Assembly (NCBI GenBank): GCA_934408705.1
Contig: CAKRVL010000002.1
Location: 1 to 64,000, forward strand
Length of the DNA: 64,000 nt
Reading direction: 5' to 3'
Origin: an uncultured Blautia sp.
GTDB taxonomy: Bacteria > Bacillota > Clostridia > Lachnospirales > Lachnospiraceae
Part shown: positions 14,229-23,191 of the stretch, in pieces
Position numbering within the stretch: the first letter of the stretch is position 1
Layout: each line of letters opens with the position of its first letter
The notes under the pieces: model-generated
Databases searched by the model: none
The model's input: the letters and a program-made list of their open reading frames with translations, nothing else
What the model was told of the DNA's origin: nothing
Translations under genes and position numbers: made by a program

Positions 14229-14259
14229 TTTACAATTAAATAAAGCAATGCGATATAAT
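14229..14259 (+). promoter_or_regulatory. Possible promoter of the secreted-protein cluster
   Basis: TTTACA at 14229-14234 and TATAAT at 14254-14259 with a 19-base spacer, 28 bases before the start codon. A second TATAAT at 14210-14215 has no good -35. Confidence 0.4.
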
Positions 14260-14287
14260 GAAGTATCAAGTGGAAGAGGAGAATTGT

Positions 14288-15313
14288 ATGAAGAAGAGAG
14301 GTCATCTGCTGGCTTTACTGATAACAGCTGTGCTTGTTATTGAGCCCGTACAGCTGATATATGCAGAGTCTGCAGTGGATAATCTGATAGGAGCTGTTTC
14401 CCAGGAAACCGGAGCCGAGATAAGAGATGAGAATGAAAGTGCTCAGCCCAAGCTGGAACCTGGCTGGGTACCCGTGGAGAAGGGATACCAGTGGAGGCAG
14501 GAGGATGGTAGTTTCCTTCAGCAATCTGGGTGGATTACGATCCAGGGTAAGAAATATTATCTTCAGAAAGGCGGTATTCGTTATTTTGGATGGCAGACCT
14601 TTAAGCAGAAGAAACGCTATTATTTATCTAACGGTGTCCTTGCCAGGAAACGATGGGTAAAGGATAATGGACATTTTTACTATATACGTAAGAATGGTAC
14701 GCCTGTACCAGCTGGCAGATGGTTGACAGTAAAAGGACGGAAATACTATATAGGCAAAAAGGGTTATCGTGTAACCGGTCTAAAGACTATCCGTAATAAG
14801 AAATATTATTTTAATCCCAAGGGTGTTTTGATCAGGAATAAAATGAGCTATAGGATTAAAGGCAAAGAGTACGAGATCAATTCAGATGGTGTTGCAATAA
14901 GGGTTTCTTCTCTGAAAGCAGAATGTATGCGTAAGGCGAAAAAGTTTGTTGAAAAGCATACCTCCCCTAATATGTCTAATAGTCAGAAGTTTAGAACCTG
15001 TTTTAACTATTTGATGGGATATACTGATTTTAAACCATGGATTAATCCTACAGATGCAGAGTTTAAGACTCAGACCTGGCCGTATCAGTCGGCAATCTAT
15101 ATGTTCGATAATAATCTTGCCGGAAGCTGTTATGGAGTTGCAAGTGCAGTAGCAGCATGTGCCAGGGTATTGGGCTATGAGCCTTACGTGATCGCCACTA
15201 CAGGAGACCATGGATTCGTAATGATCGACGGCTTATATTATGATAACATGGGACCACTGTTTGGTGCTTCTACACATTTCGCATATTCAGTGCGATCAAG
15301 GGTGAAGTTTTAA
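14288..15313 (+). CDS. Secreted protein with cell-wall-binding-type repeats and a C-terminal transglutaminase-like domain
   Basis: The first 28 residues are a signal peptide ending near YAES. From about residue 55 to 215 there are some seven copies of a 20-residue aromatic repeat of the glucan/choline-binding type (pattern W-x-x-x-x-G-K-K-Y-Y-x-x-x-x-G). The last 125 residues look like a transglutaminase/protease-like fold with a candidate triad: Cys in AGSCYGVASA, His in TGDHGFVMI, Asp in YYDNMG. I start at 14288, where AGAGGAG lies 6 bases upstream, rather than at 14258, which would place ten polar residues before the signal peptide. It is probably attached to wall polymers. The substrate is unknown. 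Two more such genes follow, then a dlt-like cassette. Confidence 0.75.
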   Translation: MKKRGHLLALLITAVLVIEPVQLIYAESAVDNLIGAVSQETGAEIRDENESAQPKLEPGWVPVEKGYQWRQEDGSFLQQSGWITIQGKKYYLQKGGIRYFGWQTFKQKKRYYLSNGVLARKRWVKDNGHFYYIRKNGTPVPAGRWLTVKGRKYYIGKKGYRVTGLKTIRNKKYYFNPKGVLIRNKMSYRIKGKEYEINSDGVAIRVSSLKAECMRKAKKFVEKHTSPNMSNSQKFRTCFNYLMGYTDFKPWINPTDAEFKTQTWPYQSAIYMFDNNLAGSCYGVASAVAACARVLGYEPYVIATTGDHGFVMIDGLYYDNMGPLFGASTHFAYSVRSRVKF

Positions 15314-15366
15314 GGCAGCCTGTCTGCTTTAAAAAAATATAATATTTATAAAAGGAGAATCAGGAA

Positions 15367-16005
15367 ATGAGAAAATGGAAAAAATTACTTCTTCCAGCCA
15401 TGTGTGCATTTATGCTCCAGATACCGGTAATTGCAAATGCCGAGTCTGTAGACAGTGGTAATAATGTGACATCTGCTGTTGAAACTCCAGTTGTTACTCC
15501 TACACCAGCACTTCCGGATGGTATCGTAAAGAAAGGCTCCAAGACTTATTTTTATAAGAATGGCGTGATGCAGAAGAATTGCTGGAGTCCAGACAAAAAG
15601 CAGTATTTTGGTAAGAATGGCGTTGCTTACGCTGCACCGAAGGTATCTGGCTGTAAGAAGAATGTTGTAGTAAAAAAGATTGGAAAGAAATACTACGGAT
15701 TTGACAGAAACGGCTTTAAAGTGAAAAAAGGTGTATATGCAGATGCCAAGGGTACTCCTTACTACTTTGACAAGAAGGGTGTCCGTGTTGCAAAGAAAAG
15801 TAACCAGCTGAAGGCGGCAAGCAAGTACATGGCAGATGGAGCAGTCCTTCGTAAGCTTCTTGGCAGGCCTTCCAAAACCAAAACACTTTCCAGCTGTATG
15901 ACAGGTATCAGTAAAGATCTTAAACTAACCTATGCTAACATTTTCGTACAGCTTGGAAAGAAGACAACTGGCGGCGAAATCGTATACGGCGTTCAGGCAC
16001 GATAA
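15367..16005 (+). CDS. Secreted protein with cell-wall-binding-type repeats
   Basis: 212 residues: signal peptide (about 1-26, ending ANAES), a short Thr/Pro linker (ETPVVTPTPALPDG), then about five Lys/Gly/Tyr-rich repeats of the glucan-binding type (for example GSKTYFYKNGVMQKN and GTPYYFDKKGVRVAKK). The last 60 residues hold no obvious enzyme domain; two Cys at GCKK and SSCM are present. AAAGGAG precedes the ATG. It lies 53 bases after the previous gene and 20 before the next, so the three are likely one transcript. Confidence 0.65.
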   Translation: MRKWKKLLLPAMCAFMLQIPVIANAESVDSGNNVTSAVETPVVTPTPALPDGIVKKGSKTYFYKNGVMQKNCWSPDKKQYFGKNGVAYAAPKVSGCKKNVVVKKIGKKYYGFDRNGFKVKKGVYADAKGTPYYFDKKGVRVAKKSNQLKAASKYMADGAVLRKLLGRPSKTKTLSSCMTGISKDLKLTYANIFVQLGKKTTGGEIVYGVQAR

Positions 16006-16025
16006 AATATCAGGAGAAGATAAGT

Positions 16026-16760
16026 ATGAGAAAGTTTACTAAAACAATGGCAGCAGTGCTGTCCCTTACTATGACACTTACAATGGTTACCCCTGTATTT
16101 GCAGAGGGCGAAACCAACACAACACCGGCGCAGACAACTGAGGTAGTTACCCCTACTCCAACTCCGGCTCAGCCTCCGAAGAATGGACTGTTTGTAAATG
16201 AGGGTAAAACCTATTGCTATAAGAACGGCAAGCTGGTTAAGAATAAATATGGCTATAAAGTCAAAAAGAATTATTACCGCATCGACAAAAAAGGTGTTGC
16301 TACTTTAGTATCCACAGCAGAGGGATTGGCTGGTGCACGTCTTGACAAGTGCGGCGGAAATCTTAAGAAAGCTTTCAAGTGGAGTTCCACCAAGATTAAA
16401 TACTGGGGCAGCGTAGGAAAGCCGAAAAAAGGTCAGAATCAGGTTGAATATTATGCAACCTACGGCTTTAAGAATGGTAAAGGTGACTGCTATGTTATGG
16501 CTGCAACATTCTGCATGATGGCGAAGGTAAAAGGGCTTAAAAATGTGAGATTCGTAAAAGGCTCCGTACCTCAGGCCAATGGAAAAAATGGTGCACACGC
16601 ATGGTGTGAGATTAAATCAGGAAAGACTGTATATGTATATGATCCGAACTTTGCATATTCCTTCCGCAATAATCCCAAAGCTCACAGCGGATACAAGTTT
16701 AAATATGGTACAAAGGGAACATACAAATATAATAAAAAGAAAACCAGAGTAAGCTTCTGA
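16026..16760 (+). CDS. Secreted transglutaminase-like protein with wall-binding-type repeat
   Basis: 244 residues with a signal peptide (cleavage near VFAEG), a Thr/Pro linker (TTEVVTPTPTPAQPP), two to three aromatic repeats (KTYCYKNGKLVKNKYGYKVKKNYYRIDKKG), then a transglutaminase-like domain. The candidate triad is Cys in GDCYVMAATFC, His in GAHAWCEI and Asp in VYDPNFAY, the usual order and spacing of bacterial transglutaminase-like proteins. Such domains may act as peptidases or cross-linkers; the activity is not predictable here. It shares the repeat and linker style of the two preceding genes. Confidence 0.75.
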   Translation: MRKFTKTMAAVLSLTMTLTMVTPVFAEGETNTTPAQTTEVVTPTPTPAQPPKNGLFVNEGKTYCYKNGKLVKNKYGYKVKKNYYRIDKKGVATLVSTAEGLAGARLDKCGGNLKKAFKWSSTKIKYWGSVGKPKKGQNQVEYYATYGFKNGKGDCYVMAATFCMMAKVKGLKNVRFVKGSVPQANGKNGAHAWCEIKSGKTVYVYDPNFAYSFRNNPKAHSGYKFKYGTKGTYKYNKKKTRVSF

Positions 16761-16815
16761 ATTAATTAATTTTATCTGATTACGGAAAAGAAGGACATAA
16801 GGAGAAATAATTATC

Positions 16816-17589
16816 ATGAAGAAAAAATTATTAATGGCTTTATTAGCAGGAACATTAGCTGTAGCAGCTCCGGTAAGCTGTTTTGCCGCTGAGGAGAGCA
16901 CAGAGAACTCAGATACAGCCGCAGGTGACGAAGCAGAGAAATCTGATGAAGCAGAGTCAGAAGACAAGGATGATTCTTCGAAGAAAACGGATGAGTTAAA
17001 AACTGTCGGAGAAAAGAAAGAGGGATGTATTACATTCAAATTAAAAAACTCTACCTCCAGGAAAATCACAGGACTTGCAATCAAGACTGCTGATGAGACA
17101 GAATTTCCTGAAAATATGATGGAAGCGGATGATTCTTTTGAATTAAAAGAAAAAAAGAGAATCTATTTTTCTTCTAAGGAAACAGAAGAGAATACAGAAG
17201 AGAATACAGACGAAACCGCAGAGGATAAAGCTCCTACATACGATATGCGTATTACCTTTGAGGATGGAACAACAGCAGATGTTCACGGAATCGTTCTGGA
17301 GGATCTTCGAACACTTACGATACGTGAGAAGGACGGAATCGTGTATGGTACTTATAAGCTGAAAAGCACAAAAGAAAAGAAGACTACCTACGATACTGAG
17401 AAAGCAATTGCAGATCAAGCTGCAGCAGATGCAGCAGCGGCACAGGCAGCAGCTTCTCAGCCAGCTGAATCTTATGACAGCAATGATTATTCCTACGACT
17501 ATAGTGGAGAAGATTACAGCGGTGGTGATGACTACAGTGGTGGTGACGATGGCGGAGATGGCTGTCTAGACGATGGACTTTTAAATTAA
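16816..17589 (+). CDS. Secreted acidic protein of unknown function
   Basis: 257 residues with a clear signal peptide (cleavage near CFAAE). An acidic linker follows (residues 25-65, rich in Glu, Asp and Ser), then a compact beta-rich region at about 70-185 with the segment CITFKLKNSTSRKITGLAIKT, then an Ala-rich helix, and a C-terminus dominated by Gly, Ser, Asp and Tyr (SGEDYSGGDDYSGGDDGG) ending CLDDGLLN. No wall-binding repeat is present. I do not recognise the family. Its position after three wall-bound proteins and before the dlt-like cassette suggests an envelope role. Confidence 0.6.
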   Translation: MKKKLLMALLAGTLAVAAPVSCFAAEESTENSDTAAGDEAEKSDEAESEDKDDSSKKTDELKTVGEKKEGCITFKLKNSTSRKITGLAIKTADETEFPENMMEADDSFELKEKKRIYFSSKETEENTEENTDETAEDKAPTYDMRITFEDGTTADVHGIVLEDLRTLTIREKDGIVYGTYKLKSTKEKKTTYDTEKAIADQAAADAAAAQAAASQPAESYDSNDYSYDYSGEDYSGGDDYSGGDDGGDGCLDDGLLN

Positions 17590-17604
17590 ACTTTCATATA
17601 GTGA

Positions 17605-17690
17605 TGTTGCCGGTAGGCGACGTATACGTTTAGAAACTATATACAGGACAGGGCTCTTGCACTGAGAAAAGCAGTGGGGAGCTCTTGTCC
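17605..17690 (+). promoter_or_regulatory. Hairpins in the leader of the dlt-like cassette
   Basis: A 6-bp hairpin GTTGCC-GGTA-GGCGAC (17605-17620) is followed by a long imperfect hairpin: GGACA (17646-17650) with TGTCC (17686-17690) and CACTG (17660-17664) with CAGTG (17672-17676), joined by a partly wobble-paired middle. It ends 6 bases before the AGGAG site of the first cassette gene. No T tract follows, so attenuation by termination is unlikely. Confidence 0.45.
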
Positions 17691-17706
17691 GATTTAGGAG
17701 AAAAAT

Positions 17707-19218
17707 ATGTCGTTAGTATCTAACCTGTTTTTACTTTTTGTGGTGGCAAGTGTATTGGTCTACTATATAGTGCCCCATAAATTTCAGTGGATCGTTCTTC
17801 TTATTTTCAGTTATATCTATTACATAGCAGGTGGTCCACGTTATGTTGTCTTCATTCTTTTTTCCACCCTTGTCACCTGGCTGATGGCTCTTCTTATCGA
17901 AAAAACAGAAGTAAAAGGAAATCATAAGAGTGCCAGGAAACTTCTGATTCTTGGTCTGATTCTTAATTTTGGTATGCTTGGAATCGTCAAGTACACCAAC
18001 TTTGCAGTAGAAAATATCAATGCATTGCTTCATTTGAATCTGAGAGGGATACAGCTATTGCTTCCCCTTGGAATTTCCTTTTATACATTCCAGTCCTCAG
18101 GCTATCTTCTTGATGTATACTGGAAAAGATGCAAGGCAGAGAGACAGCCACTGAAATATGCATTATTCGTATCTTTTTTTCCTCAGATTCTGCAGGGACC
18201 TATCGGCAGATATAGCCGTCTGGCAGATCAGCTTTATGCTGAACACAGGTTTGAGGGAAGTAATATAATCAGAGGTTTTGAGAGAATTCTCTGGGGCTTT
18301 TTTAAGAAAATGATCCTGGCAGACTGGGCCGCTGTTTTTGCAGATGCCATTTTTGAAGATCCGGCAAAGTATAACGGGGTGGCACTTCTTGGAGTTTTGT
18401 TTTATACGATCCAGCTTTACGCAGATTTCTCTGGAGGAATGGATGTTGTGATCGGTATTGCATCTATGTTTGGAATTGAATTGGATGAAAACTTTAAGCG
18501 CCCATTTTTTGCTGTATCTATCACGGATTTCTGGCATCGCTGGCATATCACTCTTGGAACTTGGATGAAGGATTATGTTTTTTATCCGGTGACATTATCC
18601 GGCTGGATGGGTAAATTTGGAAAATGGGGCAAAAAGGTGTTTGGCAAGAAAATTGGCCGCACCCTTCCTATTTGCGTGGCTAATCTGATCGTATTCTTTG
18701 TTGTAGGTGTATGGCATGGCGCTGCATGGAAATATATTGTATACGGTATGTATAATGGTATTATCATTGCTTTCAGCGGACTTATGGCAGAGAATTACCG
18801 TAAATGGAAAAAGAAGCTTCACATTTCCGGCAAGGAAACCTGGTATTATCTGTTCACTGTAATCCGTACTTTTGTATTGGTCGTGATTAGTATGTACTTT
18901 GACAGGGCAGACAGCGTTAGACAGGCATTTCATATGATGAAGCAGTCTGTCACACAATTTGCTCCTGCTCAGCTGCTTTTGATTCCGGCAGGTAAACAGG
19001 GGACTTCTTTTACTCCATATGCGCTTGTGATCATAGCTGTTGGCTGTGTGATATTATTTGTGATAAGTGTCCTTCAGGAACGTGGCGTGAAGATTCGGGA
19101 ATCTCTTGCCAGGCTTCCTCTTCCTGTTACAGTTGCCATTTATTTCTGCATGCTGGTATCCATAGGTTTGTTCGGTTCCACAGCAGTAGCGAGAGGTTTT
19201 ATTTATGCACAATTTTAA
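17707..19218 (+). CDS. MBOAT family membrane O-acyltransferase, DltB-like
   Basis: A 503-residue polytopic membrane protein of the MBOAT family. The conserved FWHRWHITLGTWMKDYV block is at 275-291 and the catalytic His is in GVWHGAAWKY (His337). DltB moves D-alanine from the DltC carrier protein across the membrane to teichoic acid; AlgI-type relatives O-acetylate polysaccharides. The DltA-like and carrier-protein genes in the same cassette favour a DltB-type role with an aminoacyl donor. It is the first of five overlapping genes. The next start codon lies 14 bases inside this gene. Confidence 0.85.
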   Translation: MSLVSNLFLLFVVASVLVYYIVPHKFQWIVLLIFSYIYYIAGGPRYVVFILFSTLVTWLMALLIEKTEVKGNHKSARKLLILGLILNFGMLGIVKYTNFAVENINALLHLNLRGIQLLLPLGISFYTFQSSGYLLDVYWKRCKAERQPLKYALFVSFFPQILQGPIGRYSRLADQLYAEHRFEGSNIIRGFERILWGFFKKMILADWAAVFADAIFEDPAKYNGVALLGVLFYTIQLYADFSGGMDVVIGIASMFGIELDENFKRPFFAVSITDFWHRWHITLGTWMKDYVFYPVTLSGWMGKFGKWGKKVFGKKIGRTLPICVANLIVFFVVGVWHGAAWKYIVYGMYNGIIIAFSGLMAENYRKWKKKLHISGKETWYYLFTVIRTFVLVVISMYFDRADSVRQAFHMMKQSVTQFAPAQLLLIPAGKQGTSFTPYALVIIAVGCVILFVISVLQERGVKIRESLARLPLPVTVAIYFCMLVSIGLFGSTAVARGFIYAQF

Positions 19219-20179
19219 GAAGATTATAAAAACAATAATAGTGGTTGCTGTGTGTGTGACGCTTCTTGCTGGATTGGATATGGCTCTTTATCCTTGTACC
19301 TTTATGAGAAATGACATTCATGCAGTGGTAAGTAACCAATATGATGACATTATTCTTGGAACATCCCATGGAATGACAGATATTGATCCGGCAGTGATGG
19401 AGGAAATCACAGGCAGAAGCGGTCATAATGTATGTGTAGGGGGAGAATATGGAATTGATGCCTATTATATTGCCAGACTGATTGCAGAGAAACAGAAGCC
19501 TGCAAGAATTATTTACGAAATAGATCCGGGATATTTTGTTTCTGAGAAAGAAGAGGGAAATAATTATCTTTTATTTTATCATGAGTTTCCATTTTCAAAA
19601 GCTAAGGTTGAATACTTCTGGAATTCTATTGCGAAATGCAATTTCCGTACTGTTTTGTTCCCCTGGTATGAGTATTCTCTTGGATATGAGCTTAGTAAGG
19701 TGAAAGAAACCTTCACTCAGAAATGGAATAAGGATTACGATATTGCCCATCTGAAAAGTGATACCCAGGAATACCACGAAAGCGGTCTTATTGAGAGATA
19801 TCCGGTGGATACTACCAAGCTGAAAATGAAGGATTTGAAGCTCTTTGAGGAGAAACTGGTAAACCCTCAGAATATGGAATATCTTGGACGGCTGATTGAT
19901 TTTTGCAAGGAAAATGATATCCAGTTTGTCGCAGTAACTACGCCGATTCCTATTAATACCTTACAGGCATATAGTGATAACTATAATGCTGCATGGAAAT
20001 ACTTTGGACAGTATTTTGATGAGCATGAAGTAACATACCTGAACTTTAATACCCAGTATTTTAAGGCATTTTCTCATGACCTTTCAGACTATACGGATTT
20101 TGATGGTCATATGAACGGAAATGCTGCAGAGGAGTATTCTAAGGTTCTGGCTAATATTCTGAAAGGAGAGGGTGTATGA
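19205..20179 (+). CDS. Membrane-anchored SGNH-fold protein, DltD-like position
   Basis: 324 residues with one N-terminal membrane anchor (about 7-27) and an extracytoplasmic SGNH-like domain. The nucleophile is probably Ser54 in DIILGTSHGMTDI, and the C-terminal catalytic pair is probably Asp300/His302 in TDFDGHMNGN. The pattern fits DltD and AlgJ/AlgX-like partners of MBOAT proteins, which take the acyl group on the outer face. It is not a close match to Bacillus DltD. The overlap with both neighbours (14 and 4 bases) argues for a stable MBOAT-SGNH unit. Confidence 0.75.
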   Translation: MHNFKKIIKTIIVVAVCVTLLAGLDMALYPCTFMRNDIHAVVSNQYDDIILGTSHGMTDIDPAVMEEITGRSGHNVCVGGEYGIDAYYIARLIAEKQKPARIIYEIDPGYFVSEKEEGNNYLLFYHEFPFSKAKVEYFWNSIAKCNFRTVLFPWYEYSLGYELSKVKETFTQKWNKDYDIAHLKSDTQEYHESGLIERYPVDTTKLKMKDLKLFEEKLVNPQNMEYLGRLIDFCKENDIQFVAVTTPIPINTLQAYSDNYNAAWKYFGQYFDEHEVTYLNFNTQYFKAFSHDLSDYTDFDGHMNGNAAEEYSKVLANILKGEGV

Positions 20180-21693
20180 TAACAAGTATTTTGGAATATC
20201 TTGAAAGTTCTGCTTCCAGATATCCGGACAAAACAGCATTTGCAGATCTTGACGCTGCATGTACATTTGAGGAATTACGCCTCCGGGCAAGAAGAGTGGG
20301 AACTGCCCTTGCAGAACATTTTGCTCCGAGAAATCCGGTGCCGGTTTTTATGGAAAAAAGTGTGGATACCATAGGTGTGTTTATGGGGGCTGTTTATGCT
20401 GGATGTTTCTATGTGCTCCTTGATACTAAGCAGCCGGCTGCAAGAATTTCGCAGATTCTGGATATTCTTGACAGTAATGTGATTGTTACTTCCAGTAAGT
20501 ATCAGAAGGATTTGGAAAAACTGGAATTCAAGGGAACAATTCTTCTTACTGAGGAACTGGAAAAAACACCAGAAGACAGTTTTATTCTGAAGAGTATTCG
20601 AGATCAGGCATTAGATACAGATCCGCTTTACGGCATTTTTACATCGGGATCCACAGGAGTTCCCAAGGGTGTTGTTGTGGGGCATCGTTCTGTAATTGAT
20701 TTTATTGACTGCTTTACAGAGCTGTTTCATATTACAGGCGAAGATGTAATGGGAAATCAGGCACCATGGGACTTTGATGTTTCTGTAAAGGATATTTATT
20801 CAGGCCTGAAAACCGGGGCGACTGTGCAGATCATTCCCAAACAGTATTTCTCTATTCCTAAGAATCTTCTTGATTTTCTGGTTGAGAGAGAGGTTACCAC
20901 GATTGTATGGGCTGTATCTGCTATGTGCATTATCAGTACCTTGAATGGTTTTACCTATAAGGTGCCGGACAAGATTAAGAAGGTTTTGTTCTCTGGAGAG
21001 GTTATGCCTATTAAGCATCTTAATATCTGGAGAAAATATCTTCCAGATACTATGTTTGTAAATATTTATGGCCCTACAGAGATTACCTGTAATTGTACAT
21101 ATTATATTGTTGACAGAGACTTTGAACCGGGAGATGTACTTCCAATGGGAAAAGCCTTTCCTAACGAAAAGGTATTTCTTCTGGATGAAGAGAATCATCT
21201 GGTTACAGAAAAGGGGATAAACGGTGAGATTTGTGTGGCAGGTAGTGCGCTTGCACTTGGCTATTACAGGAATCCAGAACAGACGAAGAAGGCATTTGTC
21301 CAGAATCCTCTGAATGACAGATATCTGGAGCCCATTTACCGTACAGGAGACCTTGCTTTCTATAATGAAAATGGGGAACTTTGCTTCGCTACACGTAAGG
21401 ACTTCCAGATCAAGCATATGGGACATAGAATTGAGCTTGGTGAGATTGAGACAGCAATGGATAAGGTTCCTGAGATTCGCAGAAGTCTGTGTATTTACGA
21501 TCAGGCAAAAAATAAAATCGTTGCTTTTTATGAGGGTGATATCGAACGTAAGCAGCTGTCACGTTCCCTTGTGAAATATGTACCAAACTTTATGGTGCCG
21601 AATGTATTTGTCCAAGTGGATACCATGCCTCTTACAAAGAATGGTAAGATTGACAGGAAAGAGCTGACAGCCAGATATCAGGAGGGAAGATAA
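20176..21693 (+). CDS. Amino acid adenylation enzyme, DltA-like
   Basis: A 505-residue stand-alone adenylation domain that should activate an amino acid with ATP and load it on the carrier protein encoded two genes downstream. Core motifs are intact: FTSGSTGVPKG (155-165), the amino-group-binding Asp in PWDFDVSVKDIY (Asp201), IYGPTE (297-302), YRTGDL (388-393) and the C-terminal catalytic Lys in LTKNGKIDR (Lys491). The NQAPWDFDVSV segment is closest to DltA (NQAPFSFDLSV in the Bacillus enzyme, from memory). Whether it selects D-Ala is uncertain: the pocket region WAVSAMCIISTLNGF differs from DltA. The ATGA overlap couples it to the upstream gene. Confidence 0.85.
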   Translation: MITSILEYLESSASRYPDKTAFADLDAACTFEELRLRARRVGTALAEHFAPRNPVPVFMEKSVDTIGVFMGAVYAGCFYVLLDTKQPAARISQILDILDSNVIVTSSKYQKDLEKLEFKGTILLTEELEKTPEDSFILKSIRDQALDTDPLYGIFTSGSTGVPKGVVVGHRSVIDFIDCFTELFHITGEDVMGNQAPWDFDVSVKDIYSGLKTGATVQIIPKQYFSIPKNLLDFLVEREVTTIVWAVSAMCIISTLNGFTYKVPDKIKKVLFSGEVMPIKHLNIWRKYLPDTMFVNIYGPTEITCNCTYYIVDRDFEPGDVLPMGKAFPNEKVFLLDEENHLVTEKGINGEICVAGSALALGYYRNPEQTKKAFVQNPLNDRYLEPIYRTGDLAFYNENGELCFATRKDFQIKHMGHRIELGEIETAMDKVPEIRRSLCIYDQAKNKIVAFYEGDIERKQLSRSLVKYVPNFMVPNVFVQVDTMPLTKNGKIDRKELTARYQEGR

Positions 21694-22914
21694 ATGGCGG
21701 ATTATAATTTTTTGCAGAAATTTATTGAAGATAAGAATCCTACGCCTTCCTATGTATTTGATCTGGATGCTTTGGCTGTACATGTAAATAAGATTAAGGA
21801 GCTGCTTACAGGAAAAGCAAGAGTCTGCTATGCCATGAAGGCCAATCCTTTTCTTACAAGACCAATGATGAAGCATGTGGATTTTTTCGAAGTATGCTCT
21901 CCTGGAGAATTTCGCATTTGTGAGCGTGTCTCTGTTCCAATGGAGAAAATCGTGCTTTCAGGTGTATATAAAAATCCTTCTGACATCCGATATGTACTTG
22001 AAACATATGCTGGAAAGGGCGTATATACAGTTGAGTCTCTGGAGCATCTGAAGCATTTGCAGAGGATCGCAGGAGAATTGGGGCAGACTATTGATGTGCT
22101 GATCCGTGTGACCAGTGGTAATCAGTTTGGTGTGGATGAAGAAGATATTCGCAAGATTATTTCCAGGAGACAGGAGTATACTGCACTTCACATTCTGGGA
22201 CTTCAGTTCTATTCAGGTACTCAGAAGAAAAATCTTTCCCAGATGGAAAAGGAGCTTCAGAGTCTGGATGCCTTTCTGGGAGAACTTAAGAAGGATTATG
22301 GGTATCAGGCAGAGGAGCTTGAGTACGGACCGGGATTGTTTGCATCTTATTTTGTGAAGGATAAGGAAGAGTCTGTTGAGGAACTTCTGGGTGGATTTGG
22401 AAGGCTTCTGGATAATCTTACCTTTGGGGGAAATGTAATACTGGAGATGGGGCGGTATCTTACCTATCTGTGTGGTTATTATATTACTTCTATCGTGGAT
22501 ATGAAGGTGAATCATGGTCAGAATTATGCTATTGTGGATGGTGGTATTAATCATCTGAATTATTATGGCCAGGCAATGGCTATGAAGCTGCCTCATTGCA
22601 CACAGACTGATAATACGGGAAATATACGTACAGAGGGTGATGAGGAACAGTGGAATTTATGCGGTTCTCTTTGTACTGTAAGTGATGTGATCGTAAAGCT
22701 TTTTCCATTGAAAAAACCACAGATTAGTGATATGCTCATATTTGAACGTGTAGGTGCATATTCCGTGACAGAGGGAATTTATTTATTTTTAAGCAGACCG
22801 ATGCCAAGAATTTATTTCTGGCATAAGGGAAGTCTTACTTTGGTTCGGGAGGCATTGCACACAGATGAATTTAATTCGGAAAGAGAGGAAATGAAAAATG
22901 GACAAATTAATTGA
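21694..22914 (+). CDS. Fold-type III PLP decarboxylase (Orn/DAP/Arg decarboxylase family) within the dlt-like cassette
   Basis: 406 residues with an alanine-racemase-like barrel and C-terminal sheet domain. The PLP lysine is Lys49 in YAMKANP. Other family motifs are present but altered: GLQFYSGTQ (170-177; diaminopimelate decarboxylases usually have His where Gln171 and Tyr173 stand), EMGR (251-254, usually EPGR), CGSLCTVSDV (323-332, matching the GPLCESGD catalytic Cys region) and SRPMP (367-371). It starts with no gap after the adenylation gene and overlaps the carrier gene by 17 bases. BtrK of butirosin synthesis, a relative, decarboxylates glutamate while bound to a carrier protein; a similar role is inferred here. 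A free-substrate diaminopimelate or ornithine decarboxylase is less likely. Confidence 0.82.
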   Translation: MADYNFLQKFIEDKNPTPSYVFDLDALAVHVNKIKELLTGKARVCYAMKANPFLTRPMMKHVDFFEVCSPGEFRICERVSVPMEKIVLSGVYKNPSDIRYVLETYAGKGVYTVESLEHLKHLQRIAGELGQTIDVLIRVTSGNQFGVDEEDIRKIISRRQEYTALHILGLQFYSGTQKKNLSQMEKELQSLDAFLGELKKDYGYQAEELEYGPGLFASYFVKDKEESVEELLGGFGRLLDNLTFGGNVILEMGRYLTYLCGYYITSIVDMKVNHGQNYAIVDGGINHLNYYGQAMAMKLPHCTQTDNTGNIRTEGDEEQWNLCGSLCTVSDVIVKLFPLKKPQISDMLIFERVGAYSVTEGIYLFLSRPMPRIYFWHKGSLTLVREALHTDEFNSEREEMKNGQIN

Positions 22915-23122
22915 AATTCTTGAGGAGATCCAGCCAGATGCGGATTATGAAACCTGTGAGACACTGATCGATGATGGATTTCTTGATTCCTTCGCAATTT
23001 TATCTATTGTCAGCGAGCTTCAGGACGAGTTTGACATCACTATTACACCGGCCGATATCGTACCGGAGAACTTTAACTCAGCAGCAGCTCTTTGGGAGAT
23101 GGTTTGTCGCCTGAAAGGTTGA
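22898..23122 (+). CDS. Acyl/aminoacyl carrier protein, DltC-like
   Basis: A 74-residue carrier protein. The phosphopantetheine serine is Ser31 in DDGFLDSFAIL, and the surrounding pattern (LIDDGFLDS, ELQDEFDI) is like DltC and other small carrier proteins. It is acidic and helical. Last gene of the cassette, followed by a strong terminator, it is the obvious thioester carrier shared by the adenylation enzyme, the decarboxylase and the MBOAT protein. Confidence 0.9.
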   Translation: MDKLIEILEEIQPDADYETCETLIDDGFLDSFAILSIVSELQDEFDITITPADIVPENFNSAAALWEMVCRLKG

Positions 23123-23134
23123 TTGTCGGAAGGG

Positions 23135-23179
23135 AAAAATCCCCCACCGGAATATTGGTTTCCGGCAGGGGATTTTTTT
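23135..23179. terminator. Terminator of the dlt-like cassette (also serves the convergent permease)
   Basis: AAAATCCCC-(2)-CCGGAA pairs with TTCCGG-(2)-GGGGATTTT, followed by more T. The A run on the 5' side allows termination of the minus-strand permease gene, whose stop is at 23192. Confidence 0.92.
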
Positions 23180-23191
23180 GTTTGTATTGTA

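Follow-up and report, generated by a model that had tools for sequence, protein, structure and literature searches.

A recurrent Dlt-like gene cassette with a built-in decarboxylase, probably serving surface aminoacylation with tailoring on the carrier

The textbook route by which Gram-positive bacteria lower their surface charge and withstand cationic peptides is D-alanylation by the Dlt system. A second kind of system, represented by BtrI/BtrJ/BtrK and VinN/VinL/VinO, makes antibiotics; BtrK acts on glutamyl-BtrI, and BtrJ is, to our knowledge, not an adenylation-domain enzyme. In both of these, an amino acid bound to a stand-alone carrier is decarboxylated by a pyridoxal 5'-phosphate (PLP) enzyme (for VinO, PMC11284099). 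In the Dlt system, the acyl group is carried on the tyrosine of the FXYXXF motif of DltX, and in other MBOAT-SGNH systems this motif lies on the C-terminus of the MBOAT, the donor being, according to the same paper, acyl-CoA with no carrier (PMC12148441). Here we analyse a 64,000-nucleotide stretch (the window) of contig CAKRVL010000002.1 from an uncultured Blautia sp. (assembly GCA_934408705.1), in which five genes at 17707-23122 make up a genuine and, apparently, so far undescribed version of Dlt-type surface acylation that is widespread in gut bacteria. With a decarboxylase in the set and a changed substrate pocket, the cassette probably adds something other than D-alanine to the cell surface, namely a decarboxylated amino acid; the product would reach a surface polymer, whereas the Vin and Btr systems yield antibiotics.

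The five overlapping or abutting genes, with a terminator behind them, were confirmed in the order in which they had originally been noted:

17707..19218, + strand: DltB-like MBOAT acyltransferase of 503 residues (PF03062, E 1.6e-20; DltB in the PDB, 6bug, E 4.2e-25)
19204..19206, + strand: Tyr500 in the C-terminal hexapeptide of the MBOAT, counterpart of the acyl-shuttle tyrosine of DltX and PatA (motif)
19205..20179, + strand: DltD-fold SGNH protein of 324 residues with an N-terminal helix (alignment and AlphaFold2 fold match)
20176..21693, + strand: DltA-like adenylation enzyme of 505 residues (PF00501)
20788..20790, + strand: Lys205, at GrsA position 239, proposed to hold the second carboxylate of the substrate
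21694..22914, + strand: fold-type III PLP decarboxylase of 406 residues, with Lys49, Arg254, Cys327 and Thr328 (Pfam and PDB profile)
22898..23122, + strand: acyl or aminoacyl carrier protein of 74 residues, with the phosphopantetheine Ser31 in DGFLDSF (PF00550, E 1.5e-4)
23128..23182, + strand: terminator hairpin with a T run (fold -26.8 kcal/mol, z -3.9)

The cassette shares with DltABCD(X) an adenylation enzyme, a carrier, an MBOAT, a DltD-fold protein and the logic of an acyl-tyrosine shuttle, which supports the Dlt-like architecture first proposed for it. It differs from DltABCD(X) in its gene order, in the built-in decarboxylase and in the fusion of the shuttle tyrosine to the MBOAT. The scores against the Dlt models all fall below the cut-offs, with 300.3 bits of 559.85 for the adenylation enzyme (DltA, TIGR01734), 180.7 of 375 for the MBOAT (DltB, TIGR04091) and 32.8 of 68 for the carrier (DltC, NF003464). 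In the PDB, the matches of the carrier are carrier proteins, D-alanyl carrier proteins among them. A canonical dlt operon is rejected on these missed cut-offs together with the substrate pocket.

The system recurs well beyond this genome. GTDB contigs were scanned with a decarboxylase profile and the best 80 loci (L001-L080) were kept, among which L001-L047 are relatives of 35-65% identity, from 37 Clostridia, three Erysipelotrichia, two Coriobacteriia, one other member of the Actinomycetota, one of the Spirochaetota and three unassigned records. At the distant, mostly proteobacterial loci L048-L080, no further cassette gene was found. These loci share descent, so the counts given below are not independent of one another. 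In 45 of the 47 loci the adenylation gene lies immediately beside the decarboxylase gene; the adenylation gene is missing in L030, and in L037 the two are separated by the carrier and one gene of unassigned identity. The latter (L037:6658-7692, + strand) encodes a 345-residue protein with no Pfam match and stands between the adenylation gene and the carrier, with the decarboxylase after the carrier. An MBOAT/DltD-like pair lies beside the decarboxylase in 35 loci, 34 of which also have the adenylation gene. In the other 12 no MBOAT lies in the fetched stretch, three of them (L035, L040 and L041) being on contigs that end soon after the decarboxylase. The order adenylation-decarboxylase-carrier-MBOAT-SGNH is found in 26 of the 47. 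The exact order of the Blautia cassette (MBOAT-SGNH-adenylation-decarboxylase-carrier) recurs in five (L001, L010, L015, L036 and the frameshifted L045), and the same order with no separate carrier open reading frame (ORF) in three (no carrier found in L014 and L044, a fused one in L032). In L045, from [Ruminococcus] faecis JCM 15917, the frames of the MBOAT tail, the adenylation enzyme and the decarboxylase are broken, either in a decaying copy or through sequencing errors. Furthermore, an even sample of 299 genomes of the Lachnospiraceae, the family of genome G004, contains the decarboxylase (E <= 1e-60) in 56 genomes, an adenylation relative (E <= 1e-90) in 123 and a DltA above its curated cut-off in just eight. 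No description of the cassette was found in the open-licence literature; most subscription papers lie outside that search.

The decarboxylase shares with LysA the fold family, the PLP lysine and Arg254 of the E-x-G-R motif, and misses the lysA cut-off (157.4 of 297.9 bits). Against the PDB, its family profile scores 130.7 bits with 6knh, which we take to be SbnH, 122.3 with BtrK (2j66) and 107.9 with LysA; fold-type III is presumably the class of all these decarboxylases. The Cys-Glu of LysA is replaced by Cys-Thr/Ser in the cassette enzyme (CTVSD) and in every one of the 45 complete relatives (the incomplete L041 and L045 were left out of the 47), as it is in BtrK and 6knh, whereas Cys-Glu is kept in M. 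jannaschii LysA and in all nine usable genome LysA copies (of ten rows, L251, taken from a wrong frame, was dropped). From the 33 distant proteobacterial loci, four proteins entered this comparison. The original prediction had singled out Tyr173 as an unusual active-site position; this needs correction, since BtrK also has Tyr there. The site is His in M. jannaschii LysA and Tyr/Phe on the side of the cassette. The claimed relationship to BtrK holds, with Thr at the position of the LysA glutamate as well as Tyr at 173. Like BtrK and VinO, the enzyme is of fold-type III with a PLP lysine and its gene lies next to those of a carrier and a ligase, the Thr having been compared with BtrK only. Among 26 genomes chosen from the 47 loci, 25 have a separate LysA-like gene (six above 297.9 bits and 19 at 266.6-287.1 bits), and a role as LysA in lysine synthesis is rejected on these genes together with the lost Cys-Glu. 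The sole genome with no separate LysA match is G018, the host of L032, in which decarboxylase and carrier are fused in one ORF of 466 residues; this single case, from a metagenome assembly, ties the two physically together. One open frame of a Lachnospiraceae locus (L197:5140-8499, - strand) contains both a decarboxylase and a surface protein that has Ig-like and transglutaminase domains, perhaps through an assembly or deletion junction.

The substrate pocket of the adenylation enzyme reads D235 V236 K239 M278 L299 S301 I322 C330 N331 K517 in GrsA numbering, with position 278 placed by eye. In the numbering of the cassette, positions 235, 236, 239, 301 and 517 are D201, V202, K205, S273 and K491. 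DVK, Ser301 and Cys330-Asn331 are constant in all 46 adenylation enzymes of L001-L047. The two canonical Lachnospiraceae DltA enzymes that we read have DLMALCTVA and DLFVICTGA (DL[MF]..CT.A) where the cassette has DVKMLSICN (DVK..S.CN), and the pocket is not of the D-Ala type, which supports the original interpretation. The surfactin A1 code DAKDLGVV, assigned to Glu/Asp by prediction in PMC10548584, has this same Lys239 as its third letter, and the substrate therefore likely bears a second carboxylate.

The pocket and the decarboxylase go together across the Lachnospiraceae sample, for which pocket and neighbours were read at all 146 adenylation matches (L097-L242). Of the 65 loci with DVK..S.[CG]N pockets (including DIK in L179), 51 are followed by the decarboxylase, as are four of the five with IAR-type pockets and none of the 76 others. 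Expressed as one marker, which was picked after the table had been seen, Ser301 with a basic residue at 239 is accompanied by the decarboxylase in 55/70 loci and everything else in 0/76. These counts too are not independent, as the DVK and IAR types form neighbouring clades in the adenylation tree, from which matches below 350 residues were left out. Lys239 alone proved wrong as a marker, as the DAK-type pockets have this lysine and no decarboxylase (0/38).

We then compared the pocket with VinN, in which side-chain loading goes with the bulkier Phe236 and Ser301, a beta13-beta14 loop shortened by one residue and the basic K330/R331 (PMC11253843). The cassette has Ser at 301 as in VinN and Val at 236 as in an engineered TycA beta-Phe enzyme of the same paper; its loop has no gap relative to DltA, and Cys-Asn stands at 330/331, with the VinN features taken as that paper describes them. 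A simple VinN-type pocket is rejected, because the loop is full-length and the basic residue sits at 239 in spite of Val236 and Ser301. The pocket thus either solves the task of VinN differently or binds an alpha-linked acid. The interpretation offered originally stands in outline; the missing loop shortening argues against a simple VinN-like picture.

The ligases of exosortase-A systems (TIGR03098/TIGR03099) likewise stand beside a PLP decarboxylase. This holds for nine of the ten high-scoring ligase loci, among them L256, slightly under the ligase cut-off with 588 of 592.35 bits. The miss is L266, which has a different code and in which a decarboxylase is absent from the fetched stretch; L257 (264 bits) and L258 (240 bits), far under the cut-off and with no decarboxylase found beside them, were dropped. 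Eight of the nine decarboxylase-linked ligases have Ser301 and read DY[NS]WTSMRSK with a one-residue gap in the loop; the ninth, L259, has DASWATMRSK and an identical gap. The cassette differs in both pocket and loop and scores below both cut-offs (adenylation enzyme 181.3 of 592.35 bits, TIGR03098; decarboxylase 163.4 of 478.45 bits, TIGR03099). Most of the exosortase ligases L255, L256 and L259-L265 thus have the signature of the VinN type, with Tyr236, Ser301, Arg330 and a loop shortened by one residue, and the predicted substrate of that system is an acidic amino acid in beta linkage, for instance Asp.

The export part resembles that of Dlt with one rearrangement. The MBOAT has His337 within a VWHG motif and ends in FIYAQF, with Tyr500 as the third residue. 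A C-terminal hexapeptide with Tyr at position 3 is present in 35 of the 36 MBOATs found, the 36th being the frameshifted L045. Among these 35, the last residue is Phe, once Tyr (L025), and the strict FXYXXF occurs in 16, the first Phe being replaced in 19. Since the MBOATs end in the shuttle hexapeptide, the cassette combines the carrier donor of Dlt with the fused shuttle of PatA. The hexapeptide on the MBOAT is shared with PatA/PatB and other MBOAT-SGNH O-acyltransferases, which according to PMC12148441 use acyl-CoA and have no carrier protein, whereas the cassette encodes a carrier. It had been noted earlier that dltX is not visible. The five genes leave no intergenic gap, though no search aimed at a short DltX-like ORF was made; the role of DltX is not lost, as its tyrosine motif is fused to the tail of the MBOAT. 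The SGNH protein has no Pfam or NCBIfam match; Ser54 and His302 are invariant in 21 aligned sequences, and its AlphaFold2 model, the sole structure prediction made for a cassette protein, has DltD as the top fold matches. The predicted MBOAT/DltD-like pair for export is thus supported. The parts of the cassette, their conservation, the association of pocket and decarboxylase, the shuttle motif and the DltD fold are all read from sequence or the predicted fold.

Based on these parts, we regard a Dlt-like surface aminoacylation with tailoring on the carrier as the probable function, in which the carrier is loaded with an acidic amino acid, the decarboxylase acts on it there, and the resulting cationic group is exported as an ester. 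We infer the substrate, the order of the first two steps, the chemistry and the acceptor. The adenylation enzyme would activate an Asp- or Glu-like amino acid, with Lys205 holding its second carboxylate, and load it on the Ser31-phosphopantetheine of the carrier. Like BtrK and VinO, the PLP decarboxylase would then strip the free alpha-carboxylate from the amino acid on the carrier. The group that is left would have a net charge of +1 and would most likely be beta-alanyl, or else gamma-aminobutyryl (GABA). The MBOAT would transfer it through the membrane to the tyrosine at its own C-terminus, in place of DltX, and the DltD-fold protein would then hand it over from its Ser54 to a hydroxyl group on a polymer outside the cell. 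Because the alpha-decarboxylation would happen on the carrier, the side-chain carboxylate must be the loading point. Since the IAR type has lost Asp235 yet keeps a related decarboxylase, the amine would lie far from the activated carboxylate. The conversions of beta-aspartyl to beta-alanyl and of gamma-glutamyl to GABA are the leading, unproven candidates.

Several observations weigh against this proposal. The full-length loop, with the basic residue at 239 instead of 330/331, makes activation of the alpha-carboxylate possible, and such loading would make alpha-decarboxylation on the carrier impossible. Lys239 occurs in the 38 DAK-type pockets with no decarboxylase next door, and the decarboxylase is likewise absent next door in 14 of the 65 DVK..S.[CG]N loci. 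The fusion in L032 comes from one metagenome assembly, whose genome is the one with no separate LysA match. TagB/F-type polymerases (PF04464, E <= 1e-20) are found in just 11 of the 26 genomes. No biochemistry was found in the open-licence literature for any member of the cassette.

The order of loading and tailoring was addressed with the 14 DVK-type loci that have no neighbouring decarboxylase. Eleven are clean, after L131 (contig end), L162 (broken adenylation gene) and L226 (decarboxylase upstream) had been dropped. The carrier directly follows the adenylation gene in seven of these 11, and a formyltransferase takes the place of the decarboxylase in four (L130, L138, L148 and L159). The four formyltransferases match one another and are 31-36% identical to the PF00551 protein of L085. 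No decarboxylase (E <= 1e-60) occurs in nine of the 11 genomes, the exceptions being G106 and G107. The pocket is unchanged with or without the decarboxylase, in loci and genomes alike; L191, one of the 11, reads GN where the others read CN. This constancy is easier to understand if loading comes first and tailoring follows on the carrier, the order known from VinN and VinO (PMC11284099), and suggests that tailoring may follow loading. The reverse order, in which a dicarboxylic amino acid is decarboxylated while still free and only its product is loaded by the adenylation enzyme, has a documented precedent in the PLP decarboxylase IdnL3, which makes 3-aminobutyrate for the adenylation enzyme IdnL1 (PMC11284099), and fits the adjacency of the genes equally. 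We consider it unlikely here, given the identical pocket code in loci and genomes with no decarboxylase, the odd presence of Lys205 for a product with no second carboxylate and the existence of the decarboxylase-carrier fusion.

A further explanation keeps the reaction on the carrier and changes the loading point. In this case, D- or L-Asp or Glu, or meso-diaminopimelate via its L-centre, would be loaded through the alpha-carboxylate, and the PLP enzyme would perform another reaction: it could turn aspartyl into alanyl by beta-decarboxylation, racemise the amino acid, or convert diaminopimelate to lysyl by decarboxylating its far D-centre. The retained Asp235, the DltA-like loop length, the Lys239 of the surfactin A1 code (PMC10548584) and the LysA-type ancestry of the decarboxylase are all consistent with this. 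However, the LysA glutamate is Thr/Ser in the cassette and all 45 complete relatives, a pocket with Val236, Ser301 and Leu/Ile322 would seem to offer too little room for diaminopimelate, and IAR-type enzymes lacking Asp235 pair with the same decarboxylase family in four of five loci, and we judge alpha-carboxylate loading improbable.

The destination of the group may not be the same in all relatives. In six loci (L016, L017, L023, L024, L026 and L028), the adenylation-decarboxylase-carrier genes lie in a conserved sugar/exopolysaccharide cluster with an upstream hexapeptide-repeat transferase, a DegT aminotransferase and a glycosyltransferase, and in four of the six also an epimerase and an EpsG polymerase; no MBOAT lies within the fetched stretch of any of them. 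Since these clusters hold the loading genes with no MBOAT, the decarboxylase appears to be a piece of the loading part rather than of the export part, in agreement with the loading module proposed before. The same activated group may be put there on a cytoplasmic amino sugar, possibly giving an N-aminoacyl sugar. That the cassette itself yields a secreted small molecule or such a cytoplasmic N-acyl sugar instead of a surface ester draws on these six clusters and is very improbable, as the MBOAT/DltD-like pair stands beside the loading part in the cassette and 35 of the 47 loci. That the cassette is just a normal Dlt operon joined by a LysA paralogue for lysine synthesis is scarcely credible: the gene-by-gene likeness to DltA, B, C and D, the sub-cut-off lysA match and genome G018, whose only lysA match is the cassette decarboxylase, stand against four missed cut-offs, separate LysA-like genes in 25 of 26 genomes and a pocket unlike that of DltA.

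As for the acceptor on the surface, the occurrence of PF04464 in only 11 of 26 genomes argues against teichoic acid as a general acceptor, and the acceptor probably varies between hosts. The L015 cassette is directly preceded by two poly(glycerophosphate) polymerase genes and an acyltransferase-3 gene. A response-regulator family occurs within 4.5 kb of nine of the 47 cassettes, a kinase family within 4.5 kb of eight and a second kinase family near three; the one response regulator scanned is of the OmpR type, and the one member scanned of each kinase family is a histidine kinase.

If the proposed surface aminoacylation is true, a dominant group of gut bacteria would use a putatively different surface chemistry, met daily by host immunity and antimicrobial peptides, and the rule linking Ser301 and a basic residue at 239 to the decarboxylase offers a direct handle on this question. 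We also raise, tentatively, a broader idea, that gut Firmicutes may possess a combinatorial platform in which one carrier/MBOAT/DltD chassis is combined with swappable pockets and swappable on-carrier tailoring, by which the surface charge is tuned. In such a platform, the same acidic load would give a neutral zwitterion with no tailoring gene, a cationic beta-alanyl or GABA ester with the decarboxylase, the Blautia cassette being this decarboxylating form, and an anionic N-formyl group with a formyltransferase.

Further adenylation types of the Lachnospiraceae (L127-L242, L085 and L086) have distinct pockets, and many lie beside carrier, MBOAT and SGNH genes. The DAK type comprises 38 loci, mostly reading DAKLAGLGM, with no neighbouring decarboxylase. 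The SM type (10 loci) has no Asp235 and perhaps uses hydroxy acids, the DNL type comprises seven loci, with a formyltransferase in L085 of that type, and the IAR type comprises five loci, four with the decarboxylase after the carrier.

Upstream of the operon, the window contains one more predicted structure:

17590..17706, + strand: leader with two hairpins (fold -41.1 kcal/mol, z -5.1)

Rfam gave no match for this leader at the gathering cut-off, with one weak match at chance level, and nothing similar was seen in L001 or the other fetched loci; a conserved regulatory RNA is not supported by these searches. The terminator hairpin at 23128..23182 is not among the hits of the pattern scan. Farther upstream, at 14258-17589, four consecutive genes encode secreted-looking proteins, three with aromatic repeats resembling cell-wall-binding repeats and one acidic, as judged by eye.

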